From an uncultured Clostridia bacterium (lineage in GTDB: Bacteria > Bacillota > Clostridia > UBA1381): a stretch of DNA of 33,651 nt. The position numbers were made by a program, and so were the translations under genes. The notes under the pieces are model-generated. The model had not been told where the DNA came from, did no database searches, and saw only the letters and a program-made list of their open reading frames with translations. This document shows positions 5,712-24,415 of the stretch, one piece after another; the first letter of the stretch is position 1; every line of letters begins with the position of its first letter. The stretch spans positions 1 through 33,651 of the forward strand of contig CALXWJ010000053.1 in assembly GCA_944392335.1 (NCBI GenBank). Reading direction: 5' to 3'.

Positions 5712-6098
5712 ATGTTTATGAAATTCAAATCAAACGAAGAAAGGCGTGCTTACGGCGGTTCTGATTTCATCGAAATACAGTATTGCACACTGCCAAATGG
5801 AACTTTAGACAAAGAAATTGTGGATGCAGTCCATAATTGGGATTTATCGTCGCTTTTTATATTCGGAGATGATTTTCAAAGGTTTTATAATGAATACAAA
5901 GAAATCATCGGCAACGGTCTTTACAGTAATTTGCATGAAGGATCCATTGATTATTGTGGAATCAATTATTACAGCCGTGAAAAAACAATAAAAATAATTG
6001 AACGATTGAAAGAACGTAAACCTGAGGAATTTGAAATCTTACTTGATTGGCTGCTTAGCGACTTAAAGTATAATGGGTTTTACATTTTAGGAGTATAA
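5712..6098 (+). CDS. Hypothetical protein, 128 aa
   Basis: A soluble protein opening M-F-M-K-F-K-S-N-E-E-R-R-A-Y, with a central aromatic-rich part (F-I-F-G-D-D-F-Q-R-F-Y-N-E-Y) and a helical end. ATG 5712 was chosen because AGGTG (5701-5705), overlapping the previous stop, lies 6 bases before it; GTG 5703 is inside that site. The family is not recognised. It is probably coupled to the gene before it. Confidence 0.75.
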   Translation: MFMKFKSNEERRAYGGSDFIEIQYCTLPNGTLDKEIVDAVHNWDLSSLFIFGDDFQRFYNEYKEIIGNGLYSNLHEGSIDYCGINYYSREKTIKIIERLKERKPEEFEILLDWLLSDLKYNGFYILGV

Positions 6099-19406: not shown

Positions 19407-19709
19407 ATGAATGCAAATGACATTCCTGAATGGATTCTCGCTTTAGAATCAGAAGACTTGGCTTTCCTAAAAAACTTTGTTTTAAAATCGGGCTCATTAA
19501 AAGAAATTTCTAAGCTGTATGAAGTGTCTTATCCAACAGTCCGGCTTAGATTGGATAAGCTTATTCAAAAAATTGAACTGAATGATCGAAAAGAGGAAGA
19601 GCCATTTTCAAAATTCATTAAAGGGTTAGCGGTTGATTCACGAATTGATTTAGAAACCGCAAAAATTATTATTGATAAATATAAACAGGAAAAGGAGAAA
19701 AAATCATGA
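19407..19709 (+). CDS. DUF2089 family DNA-binding regulator
   Basis: A 100-aa protein. The core S-G-S-L-K-E-I-S-K-L-Y-E-V-S-Y-P-T-V-R-L-R-L-D-K-L (about 29-53) is a helix-turn-helix typical of DUF2089 proteins. An acidic link and a C-terminal helical part (S-R-I-D-L-E-T-A-K-I-I-I-D-K-Y) follow. DUF2089 proteins are often found beside small membrane proteins and are thought to be regulators; their ligand is unknown. The ribosome site is AAAAGGAGG. The stop overlaps the next ATG by 4 bases (19706-19709), which ties it to the small membrane genes. Confidence 0.9.
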   Translation: MNANDIPEWILALESEDLAFLKNFVLKSGSLKEISKLYEVSYPTVRLRLDKLIQKIELNDRKEEEPFSKFIKGLAVDSRIDLETAKIIIDKYKQEKEKKS

Positions 19710-19981
19710 AACATTGGATTATAGTGATCATTGCGATTGCATTGTTTTTCTTACACGAGCGGTTAAGCGCAACAAAATATTGGTTTTTAGGTGGCCTACT
19801 TCCTTTAGCGGGCATTGGTGTGGCAATATATCAACTCATTATTCTTAAAACAACTTTATCAACAACGAATATCATCGCATACATTGTTTTCTTTGCTGTA
19901 TCGTTCCTTCTCTGGATTGTAGGTAGGTATGAGTATAAGCAGAAAGAAATAAATAAAATGAAAGCAAAAGATATTCAATGA
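19706..19981 (+). CDS. Small membrane protein, MKxKD-tailed paralogue 1
   Basis: A 91-aa protein with three hydrophobic segments (about 4-20, 27-46 and 55-72). The motif W-F-L-G-G-L-L-P-L marks the start of the second, and the basic tail ends E-I-N-K-M-K-A-K-D-I-Q. The three later paralogues share the G-G-x-x-P turn and the M-K-x-K-D tail. It overlaps the DUF2089 gene by 4 bases. Function is unknown; the tail faces the cytoplasm if the first segment starts inside. Confidence 0.85.
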   Translation: MKHWIIVIIAIALFFLHERLSATKYWFLGGLLPLAGIGVAIYQLIILKTTLSTTNIIAYIVFFAVSFLLWIVGRYEYKQKEINKMKAKDIQ

Positions 19982-20011
19982 GAAATATAAATAGGAAAAG
20001 GAGAAGTAATC

Positions 20012-20302
20012 ATGATGGAGTTAGTTGTTGGATTTGCTGTTGCTGCTATACTTTTAATTTTAGAATATATTTTGTGTACAAAATTAAAAAGTCCTCTTTG
20101 GGGCGGAATTATTCCCGTCTTAATTCTTGTAGGAACGATTTGTCTTTTTGTCGGTGGCAGAATTCCTCTGGAAACAAGATATTTATTCCCGTTTGTAATT
20201 CTTAACACCTTATTTTTTGGAGATTGGGGAACAGGCAGAGATAAATACAGGAAAATCAAACAAGCAGAAATGGAGCGAATGAAAGTTAAAGATTTTCAAT
20301 AA
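20012..20302 (+). CDS. Small membrane protein, MKxKD-tailed paralogue 2
   Basis: A 96-aa relative of the gene before it: three hydrophobic segments (about 4-22, 28-48 and 57-71), the turn motif L-W-G-G-I-I-P-V-L, a longer polar link after the third segment (G-D-W-G-T-G-R-D-K-Y), and the tail A-E-M-E-R-M-K-V-K-D-F-Q. AAAAGGAG precedes a double ATG (20012 and 20015); either may be used. It is separated from paralogue 3 by a disturbed 172-base gap. Confidence 0.85.
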   Translation: MMELVVGFAVAAILLILEYILCTKLKSPLWGGIIPVLILVGTICLFVGGRIPLETRYLFPFVILNTLFFGDWGTGRDKYRKIKQAEMERMKVKDFQ

Positions 20303-20474
20303 GTAGTAAAGCCATCGGAGGCAGTCATTAGCGAAGATGAACGGCACATGCGTGTTGCTGTTGATAACTCCGTCTTGCTTTTCTGGTAGACGGTTGACTA
20401 TTTCAAGATATGAGTATAAGTAAAAACGTTCAAGTAAAATGCAAGCAAAAATATATAAATAAGGAGGATAATTT
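20303..20474 (+). pseudogene. Gap with the decayed tail of a fifth paralogue and an unexplained insert
   Basis: The stretch 20407-20455 matches the 3' end of paralogue 1: TATGAGTATAAG is identical, followed by a degenerate copy of the AAAATGAAAGCAAAAGATAT tail, now broken by stop codons (Y-E-Y-K, stop). It reads as the remnant of a lost paralogue. The preceding 20312-20395 is richer in GC and looks like neither the paralogues nor other parts of the window; I cannot identify it. The ribosome site for paralogue 3 (AAGGAGG) closes the gap. Confidence 0.6.
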
Positions 20475-20750
20475 ATGCATACAGTCATTACTTTTATTAT
20501 TGCTATTATAGTAATTGTGTTCCATTATTGGGCATGCCGCAGACGCCCTAAATATTGGTATGTGGGAGGTATCATTCCGGTTTTATGGTTTGGATTGAAT
20601 ACTATTTTATTTTTAAATGGAAAAATTAACTTTCATGAGGACTGGAAAATGCTTGTTTTTCCAACCGTTATTATTTTATTAATGTGGATAGAAGGTTATC
20701 AGGCATCAAAGAAAAAAGAAATTGAAAAAATGAAGGCAAAAGATATTTAA
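20475..20750 (+). CDS. Small membrane protein, MKxKD-tailed paralogue 3
   Basis: A 91-aa protein with the same plan: first segment about 4-18, a basic R-R-R-P-K-Y-W link, the turn motif Y-V-G-G-I-I-P-V-L-W, two more segments (about 29-46 and 57-72), and the tail E-I-E-K-M-K-A-K-D-I. AAGGAGG precedes the ATG. Of the four it is closest to paralogue 1 in the turn and tail. Function is unknown. Confidence 0.85.
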   Translation: MHTVITFIIAIIVIVFHYWACRRRPKYWYVGGIIPVLWFGLNTILFLNGKINFHEDWKMLVFPTVIILLMWIEGYQASKKKEIEKMKAKDI

Positions 20751-20782
20751 TTTTTATTTTATAGAAAGGAATTTATATTGAT

Positions 20783-21055
20783 ATGAGAACACTATTAGTA
20801 TTGATAATAACCCTTATTATCTTGGCAGTGCAGTTTCATTTCGGTTTACGCAAAAAAAAGGTGTTTGGATCTATGATGCCTATTATTATGACGATGTTAT
20901 TTGTATACTTAAGCGTAAGCGAAAAGACAACTACATATATCTTAACTGGAGTTACATCTATTGCCGCTATAATTATTGTGTGGACTATAGGTTATATTAA
21001 ATCATCAAAATACGAGAAGGATGAGATTGAACATATGAAATCAAAGGATCTTTAA
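20783..21055 (+). CDS. Small membrane protein, MKxKD-tailed paralogue 4
   Basis: A 90-aa protein, the most divergent of the set. The turn reads V-F-G-S-M-M-P-I-I, with Ser replacing the second Gly. It has three hydrophobic segments (about 4-18, 28-46 and 52-69) and the tail D-E-I-E-H-M-K-S-K-D-L. The GAAAGGA ribosome site fits. It is the last gene of the DUF2089 array, followed by a strong hairpin. Confidence 0.85.
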   Translation: MRTLLVLIITLIILAVQFHFGLRKKKVFGSMMPIIMTMLFVYLSVSEKTTTYILTGVTSIAAIIIVWTIGYIKSSKYEKDEIEHMKSKDL

Positions 21056-22246: not shown

Positions 22247-22279
22247 AATGAAAAAAGAAGAATTGAAAGGAGGTACACA

Positions 22280-22552
22280 ATGAATAAGTCAGAATTAGTG
22301 GCAGCTATTGTTGAAAAAACCGGATCTACAAAAAAAGATGCTGAAGCAATTATGAATGCAACTTTTGAGGCTATATCAGATGCACTTGCAAATGGAGATA
22401 AAGTTTCACTGATTGGCTTTGGTAACTTTGAGGTTAGAGAACGTGCTGCTCGTGAAGGTAAAAATCCTCAGACTGGAGAAAAAATTCAAATCGCTGCATG
22501 TAAAGTTCCTGCCTTTAAACCAGGTAAGGCATTAAAAGATCGCGTGAAATAA
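22280..22552 (+). CDS. hup: HU family DNA-binding protein
   Basis: A 90-aa histone-like protein of normal length. It shows the N-terminal helical part [10 protein letters not shown], the conserved [15 protein letters not shown]-x-N-P-Q-T-G-E (about 46-68) with the DNA-intercalating Pro in the arm, and the end [13 protein letters not shown] bends and compacts DNA and assists site-specific recombination. ATG 22280 follows AAAGGAGGT; an upstream ATG at 22214 lies before the promoter -10 and is not used. A terminator separates it from the convergent recombinase. Confidence 0.96.
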
Positions 22553-22606: not shown

Positions 22607-23437
22607 TTATAAGCGATTAGCTTTATCTTTCATTTCTTTGGCGGTGGGATTGCTGTAAATAAGTGTAGTTTGAACATTACTGTGTCCAGCCTGATTTGCC
22701 ACCTCATGAATAGAATATCCGTTTTCCAGTGCATTCGAACAAAAATAGTGCCGCAGTGTTTTTGGTGTAATAGAATCCGAATATTTGTTAAATATCTGAT
22801 TGATACGGGATGGTGTCAGTTTTTCTTTTTGGCGGCTTACAAACAAATATGGACTTTCTGAATTTCGTTCTTTCAAGTATTCACGAATTGCATGGACGAC
22901 CTTATCATTTATATACACTATTCTCTGCTTGCTGCCTTTGCCTATTATCCGGATTTCTTTTGATATAAGGTCTACTTGATCCAGTCTGAGAGAAATGCAC
23001 TCACTTCGTCTAATACCTGTATAAACATAAAGTGTAACAATCGCATAATCTCTTTTGCTGCCAAACTCCAGCAATTTTTGTCGGAATGCTTCCACATCTT
23101 TCTTCTCCACTGTACATGGACTGGCATACTGGATCTGGATTTTCATAAAATCACTGTCCAATACTGCCGGCTCTGCTTGGTACTCATTCTCCAATAAATA
23201 AGCGTTTAAAGTTTTAAGTGAAGAAATATGGTTATTTACTGTTCGAGGATCGTATTGTTTAATGTTACGCATGTATGAGATATATTCCAATACATTCGCG
23301 CGGTACAGCCGAGCTGGTTCTTCGCCAAAACTATCAAGGCACCACTTGAAAAATAAGCTGACATTTCTGCAATATGTTTTGACAGTGTTTTCGGATTTGC
23401 CGCTTTCTTTTAAATAGTCACAAAATTTCTCTATCAT
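22607..23437 (-). CDS. Tyrosine recombinase / integrase (XerC/D-like)
   Basis: A 276-aa site-specific recombinase. An N-terminal SAM-like DNA-binding domain spans about 1-95 and the catalytic domain about 108-276. Active-site residues are Arg143 (G-I-R-R-S-E), Lys167 (G-K-G-S-K-Q-R), Arg229 (T-L-R-H), His252 (A-G-H-S-N) and nucleophile Tyr261 (T-L-I-Y-S). The first His of the usual H-x-x-R is replaced by Lys226, a variation found in some family members. The frame is intact. There are no other phage or conjugation genes nearby, and its upstream region holds repeated sequences that may be its sites or operators. Confidence 0.93.
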   Translation of the reverse strand: MIEKFCDYLKESGKSENTVKTYCRNVSLFFKWCLDSFGEEPARLYRANVLEYISYMRNIKQYDPRTVNNHISSLKTLNAYLLENEYQAEPAVLDSDFMKIQIQYASPCTVEKKDVEAFRQKLLEFGSKRDYAIVTLYVYTGIRRSECISLRLDQVDLISKEIRIIGKGSKQRIVYINDKVVHAIREYLKERNSESPYLFVSRQKEKLTPSRINQIFNKYSDSITPKTLRHYFCSNALENGYSIHEVANQAGHSNVQTTLIYSNPTAKEMKDKANRL

Positions 23438-23504
23438 TTTTTATCTCTTCCTCCTATCTTCTTTATTATAATTACACCGGAAGAAAAGATGATCTGCAAC
23501 AAAA

Positions 23505-23615
23505 TAATTGTGTTTAACTCATTTTTTATATTTGTATATATAATTGTGTTTAACTCAACTGGGTTATGAGTATTAAAAAAAGACGGCAGTTAAACACAAT
23601 TAACATTATGTTTAA
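23505..23615. repeat. Direct and inverted repeats upstream of the recombinase
   Basis: TAATTGTGTTTAACTCA occurs twice in the same orientation, at 23505-23521 and 23541-23557 (17/17 identical, 36 bp apart). Its reverse complement AGTTAAACACAATTA occurs at 23588-23602 (15/15). ATTATGTTTAA at 23605-23615 is a 10/11 match in the first orientation and forms an inverted pair with the third copy around a 4-bp centre. These could be recombinase-binding sites, an attachment site, the ends of a small invertible segment, or operators. Confidence 0.75.
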
Positions 23616-23764: not shown

Positions 23765-24415
23765 ATGATTAATTTATCACTTTCGCAGGAATATTTGATG
23801 TGTGCACTAAATGATAAAGGTAAAATACCAACCTTCAACCTTGAACGGGTTATTGCCGTTGCCGCGTCCGCAGTTGCAGAACTTATGATGGACGATATCG
23901 TTGTTTCGGATGGGAAAAAGCTGTCTGTAAAAAAAGTTTTACCGGCAGAAAAAAGTTATCTTAACCCCGTTTATAATTTTATCGAGAAAAAAGAGCATGT
24001 TGGATTCAGAACAGTGGTAGAACATTTTTCCTTTACATTGTCAAGCAAAAATATTGATGAATTATTTGATTCAATAGGCAATTCCCTTGTTCTGGCAGGC
24101 TGTGCACAAAAAGAAAAAAGCGGGATGCTCGGCAATAAAAATGCATATATACCCGATTTAAAAACTGTTGACAATATTATTCAAAACATCCGTGCGGAAA
24201 TTTTAGAAGAGGGAGAATTGACTGAAGATATCGCTGCTCTGACAGCGATTCTGGACAAGACGGGAGAGCTTATGAAGTACTTTTCTTCATATGAAAAAAA
24301 GACTGTAAAACAGCGTCTGAAGGAAATTAAGAATAACCCGGAAAATAAAGAAATTGCGAAAGTAATCAATTATGTAGAGGAACTTATGGTGGTTATTATC
24401 GTTTCGGCTACCTGA
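23765..24415 (+). CDS. GPP34 (GOLPH3-like) family protein
   Basis: A 216-aa soluble, mostly helical protein. The start L-S-L-S-Q-E-Y-L-M-C-A-L-N-D-K-G-K-I-P, the helix A-A-S-A-V-A-E-L-M-M-D-D-I-V-V and the general length match the GPP34 family. Its eukaryotic member GOLPH3 binds phosphoinositide on Golgi membranes; bacterial members are common in actinobacteria and some Bacillota, with little known of their role. Here it is the first gene after a strong promoter and is followed by MerR, a two-component pair and an ABC exporter, so a membrane or stress role is plausible. The family call is by eye, at fair confidence. Confidence 0.75.
   Translation: MINLSLSQEYLMCALNDKGKIPTFNLERVIAVAASAVAELMMDDIVVSDGKKLSVKKVLPAEKSYLNPVYNFIEKKEHVGFRTVVEHFSFTLSSKNIDELFDSIGNSLVLAGCAQKEKSGMLGNKNAYIPDLKTVDNIIQNIRAEILEEGELTEDIAALTAILDKTGELMKYFSSYEKKTVKQRLKEIKNNPENKEIAKVINYVEELMVVIIVSAT

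Follow-up and report, generated by a model that had tools for sequence, protein, structure and literature searches.

The tyrosine recombinase gene and the repeats upstream of it in the window (the whole 33,651-nucleotide stretch of Clostridia DNA analysed here) probably form a stand-alone site-specific recombination module of the TnpI type, comprising one tyrosine recombinase and its own irs-like site (Table 1). On the best reading of the sequence, this module was acquired from a mobile element and has been kept under purifying selection in the chromosome. The closest known systems are found in Tn3-family transposons. In Tn4430, the irs consists of IR1, IR2, DR1 and DR2 just upstream of tnpI, with recombination at IR1-IR2, while the TnpI of Tn5401 binds at its site and modulates its own expression; a survey of 190 Tn3-family transposons in 2020 contained only three with TnpI/irs (PMC7157771). 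The four-motif layout defined there was found upstream of the window recombinase. The window resembles Tn4430 and Tn5401 in having a single tyrosine recombinase with a four-motif site directly upstream (an inverted core plus DR1 and DR2), to which expression is probably tied, a likeness drawn from the published layout. Tn4430 itself was sought by a 38-bp end sequence, which gave end-like matches and no tnpI locus in the stretches examined.

Table 1. Features of the recombination module and its flanks (positions in the window)
Feature	Position	Strand	Basis or remark
HU-family nucleoid protein gene, convergent neighbour	22271-22552	+	PF00216; adjacent in G064 too
Tyrosine recombinase gene, TnpI-like, 276 aa, intact	22607-23437	-	ORF and PF00589
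Ribosome-binding site AGGAGG of recombinase gene	23450-23455	-	Direct reading
Probable recombinase promoter, just downstream of DR2	23471-23499	-	Consensus match only
-10 TGTAAT, 17 bp from -35	23471-23476	-
-35 TTGCAG	23494-23499	-
DR2, accessory motif copy, 18 bp, identical to DR1, 36-bp period	23504-23521	-	Repeat search
DR1, accessory motif copy, 18 bp, 36 bp from core	23540-23557	-	Repeat search
Predicted core recombination site IR1-IR2, 26-bp palindrome, arms 11+4+11	23590-23615	-	Homologs with the same palindrome
Core arms	23605-23615 and 23590-23600
4-bp core spacer, GTTA in gene direction	23601-23604
Junction segment	23616-23686	.	G064 and G850 carry 5.5-6.6 kb extra here, absent in the window
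GPP34-domain gene, divergent, operon head; context, outside module	23765-24415	+	PF05719

The recombinase is complete, as the preliminary description had proposed, and its open reading frame is intact. A profile search identified PF00589 and SAM-like N-terminal domains, and the catalytic set was assigned by motif as R143, K167, K226 (the H/K position), R229, H252 and Y261, giving the tyrosine recombinase with complete catalytic residues that is characteristic of TnpI/irs. R143, K167, R229, H252 and Y261 are invariant in the homolog alignment. Comparison with the homologous locus L021 gave a dN of 0.035 against a dS of 0.376, which indicates purifying selection on the protein. Among general models and structures, XerA, XerC and XerD come closest, with XerA (4a8e) as the nearest solved structure by profile comparison. 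However, the protein scored below every NCBIfam cut-off (177.7 vs 220 bits for XerA), and it is not recognised as an XerC, XerD, XerS or XerA equivalog. The Xer/dif systems (XerS/difSL, XerH/difH and archaeal XerA) share the short two-arm core, but the window module has its own DR1/DR2 accessory sites in place of a bare dif of 28-31 bp. Furthermore, its recombinase is rare and patchy (at E 1e-60, 2/95 genomes of the order, 11/393 of the class and 11/398 of the phylum), which fits horizontal arrival.

Read in gene direction, the order is core, DR1, DR2 and gene, with each step measuring 36 bp. The core reads TTAAACATAAT-GTTA-ATTGTGTTTAA (23615-23590, two inverted arms), and GAGTTAAACACAATTA is contained in both direct repeats (23557-23540 and 23521-23504). 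These were initially described as two 17-bp direct repeats 36 bp apart; the 36-bp step (start to start) stands, while the length is 18 bp at 100% identity. The exact 15-bp inverted copy (23588-23602) and the degenerate fourth copy (23605-23615) were located as described. The 18-bp direct repeat exceeds the longest repeat of every one of 200 dinucleotide shuffles (mean 9.2, maximum 13). Taken by itself, the 15-bp inverted match is within chance, as AT-rich shuffles reach 22, but the four-copy arrangement scores 63/66 against a shuffle maximum of 49. This score and the recurrence of the arrangement upstream of homologs uphold the earlier link between the repeats and the recombinase.

The regions upstream of recombinase homologs were searched for the core, DR1 and DR2 in genome collections, plasmids and viral contigs. 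A four-part site was found at 29 loci, including the window and 28 homologs of 34-93% identity in chromosomes, plasmids and phages, a count that holds several near-copies, so that the independent cases are fewer. At each of these loci, the score exceeds the best of 15 shuffles of that locus by 6 or more. In the majority, the core is of the 11+4+11 form, DR1 follows after 36 bp and DR2 with a 36-bp period; the exceptions (47/36, or 46-47 with a 24-bp period) are shifted by roughly one turn of the helix, which would fit contacts between proteins. The motif is TTAAACAYAAT in the relatives of the window, TTCAACATAGT in pBM19 and pGEOTH02, TGCAACATAAT in phages and CGCAACAAAAT elsewhere. Mean identity among copies is 0.89 within a locus and 0.75 between loci, and none of 5000 permutations was as high (15 loci, kinship ignored). 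Since the letters vary by lineage yet change together in all four copies, the four-part site is very likely the recombinase's own.

In a quick tree, 23 of the 24 site-bearing rows fall in one clade of 27 (SH-aLRT 98); the tree has several long branches and its deeper placements are unsure. The same upstream search recovered no four-part site at five further recombinase-like genes in the genome of the window and no clear one in the sub-clade L019, L020 and L026, where the recombinase is kept. By eye, two decayed direct repeats about 36 bp apart remain in L020. A fixed-geometry search also gave no clear four-part site for the plasmid recombinases L080-L085 and L087 (about 30% identity), and related repeats at other spacings were seen by eye or repeat search in L053, L056, L086 and L088. 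The exact core pattern was absent from the viral contigs scanned, while a protein-based scan of viral contigs did find homologs. As a separate observation, a sortase gene (PF04203) directly follows the recombinase in gut relatives (L009 5841-6614, L014 5828-6601, L020 3983-4786), as does one assigned by resemblance in L057 (839-1645), and the recombinase-sortase pair is kept across recombinase identities of 68-78% to the window.

These comparisons bear on the inversion switch that was first proposed for the neighbouring operon, whereby the recombinase would flip 23505-23615 and alter the expression of flanking genes. Inverted copies do exist, and known clostridial invertons are driven by tyrosine recombinases according to the literature. 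However, order, orientation and, within the shifts given above, spacing are fixed at the 28 other loci, none of which is inverted. The strain comparison that had been suggested as a source of orientation variants returned a single orientation in the near-identical L009, L011, L012 and L013 and in the close relative G850 (91-97% identity). In addition, conservation is as high in the direct copies DR1/DR2 as in the inverted ones, the likely recombinase promoter lies outside the segment, and the segment, at about 100 bp, is very short for an inverton, as had been recognised at the outset. The 'inverted copies' are best taken as the two arms of the recombinase core and the direct repeats as accessory sites. 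On the sequences compared, the inversion switch is highly improbable, although a rare inverted form may exist.

The relation of the module to Tn3-family transposons is clearest in L061, a viral contig that carries a Tn3 transposase (PF01526 plus DUF4158) and a recombinase with 43% identity to that of the window and the same site geometry. Its transposase, recombinase and site all lie between 44-bp inverted repeats (1692-1735 and 5897-5940), and the outermost TATTA is directly repeated at the two ends, which fits a 5-bp target duplication. The transposase, terminal repeats and shared site geometry indicate that this clade member serves an intact Tn3-family transposon as its resolvase, and its place inside the 27-row clade relates the window recombinase to a transposon-borne TnpI. 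L088, a distantly related tnpI-tnpA pair from a Legionella plasmid, has DUF4158 in its transposase and direct repeats 46 bp apart, and differs from the window in its motif and probably in its spacing. Unlike TnpI/irs, the window module is chromosomal, beside the HU gene, and has neither a transposase nor terminal repeats. No Tn3 transposase (PF01526) was found in its own genome, and no convincing terminal inverted repeats flank the recombinase gene in the window; a Tn3 remnant in the window was rejected as a candidate on these two grounds, and carriage by a Tn3 transposon (tnpA, terminal inverted repeats) was not found for the module. Nor does the ORF list of the window contain a transposase, relaxase or phage gene, in agreement with the initial view of a recombinase without other mobile genes. 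Judged by its sequence, the window module works like TnpI/irs in a family that includes transposon TnpI, and is itself no resolvase of a Tn3 transposon.

The chromosomal setting is shared with relatives. As previously described, the recombinase faces a divergent operon, headed by the GPP34 gene and containing MerR, response-regulator, kinase and ABC-transporter genes (the last three named by eye). A GOLPH3-like (GPP34) protein at the head of a MerR/two-component/ABC-transporter operon in a bacterium is an observation in its own right. G064 has an 80% identical GPP34 homolog on the same contig and the same setting as the window, with ArsR, SdpI and HU genes on one side and GPP34 on the other, and G850 agrees as far as its short contig reaches. 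The extra DNA of G064 and G850 between core and GPP34 encodes peptidase, sigma factor and anti-sigma genes, and the homology of the window to L008 and L021 stops at 23614-23615. Most simply, the window lineage appears to have lost a stretch of about 5.5 kb between the core and GPP34. Recombination at the core was considered as the cause of this junction and rejected; ordinary deletion is likelier, given that the relatives simply carry the 5.5-6.6 kb and have no second core at its far end. Two further observations concern the same genome. At 19407-21055 of the window, a DUF2089 gene is followed by four membrane proteins of about 90 aa that resemble tandem paralogs and end in KMKAKDIQ, RMKVKDFQ, KMKAKDI and HMKSKDL. 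An S-layer-domain peptidase query gave 99 matches in the genome, nearly all in the SLH region, an unusually large SLH set.

The preliminary description also offered an attachment site, which would make the gene an integrase and the repeats an attP-derived junction of an integrated mobile element. Such a reading would accord with homologs in phages and plasmids and with the DNA beyond the core, which differs between the window and its relatives. However, this difference is best read as the 5.5-kb deletion, with no second core at the other end, and the chromosomal neighbourhood is common to three genomes. An integrated element would have two junctions, but a genome-wide search allowing up to 3 mismatches gave a single core (in a 99-contig draft, where a plasmid with a second site could escape notice), which makes this explanation very unlikely; what survives of the earlier claim is the recombination site. 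Moreover, the phages L059 (3914-5837) and L060 (1541-3474), as well as L022 (3670-5834), have an ordinary tyrosine integrase gene upstream of the module of site and recombinase. This arrangement in two phage contigs and one genome suggests that integration and resolution are tasks of separate enzymes.

The site and the putative promoter stand in one of two arrangements, both recognised by consensus match only. In the window's gut relatives, TTGYAN-17-TGTAAT occurs at the same place just after DR2. In phage, plasmid and transposon members (L022, the second-best match, L025, L031, L049, L055 and L059-L062), the -35 match falls at a fixed position in the core arm nearer the gene (core +21/22), with the -10 match before DR1 (core +44/45). 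With a putative promoter at or beside the site in both arrangements, bound recombinase could affect its own transcription, and the module is probably self-regulating. It has also been suggested that the repeats are operators of the recombinase gene; as a full explanation, the protein would have given up recombination and would act as a repressor of its own gene and perhaps of the divergent operon. This is unlikely, though it survives as a lesser alternative, as the site lies at the putative promoter, Tn5401 TnpI regulates transcription (PMC7157771) and the genome yielded no partner site. Against it, purifying selection maintains the catalytic residues, the core retains two arms and a spacer, and the GPP34 operon is adjacent in the window lineage only.

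The TnpI-type module is proposed to act as follows. Recombinase protomers would occupy both arms of the inverted core, the place of strand exchange, and also DR1/DR2 as accessory sites. If a circular molecule held two such sites in direct orientation, they would synapse by way of DR1/DR2 and the molecule would be split into two circles, with the accessory repeats favouring resolution over inversion or fusion. Binding beside or over the promoter would limit expression of the recombinase itself. Binding, strand exchange, resolution and autoregulation are all inferred. A single core copy provides no partner site in a monomeric chromosome, and in the absence of a transposase the module could act only on duplicated copies or survives as a captured piece. 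Such copies could be present in chromosome dimers or be supplied by a plasmid or other mobile element with the site.

Self-contained recombinase modules are known from other replicons. Cre/loxP of phage P1 and the Xer-like recombinases of plasmid prophages are believed to maintain a circular replicon as a monomer (PMC8026635, PMC2409434). Both resemble the window in being self-contained. The window differs in its chromosomal location and in its direct-repeat accessory sites, which loxP is not known to have. It is conceivable, though unlikely, that the host has domesticated on its chromosome a resolvase of transposon type, together with the accessory-site filter, for a purpose of its own, such as chromosome dimer resolution or regulation of neighbouring genes, with no transposon involved.

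A TnpI-type module would replace the tempting, and probably wrong, reading of this region as an inversion switch. It would also extend the recombinase-plus-site unit to a wider portable module carried by plasmids, phages and chromosomes of Bacillota, a novelty that is provisional and judged against the open-licence literature. The natural series of motif variants, which change in step with the protein, offers material for working out how tyrosine recombinases recognise specific DNA, and the same variants could be used to test how accessory sites choose resolution over inversion.
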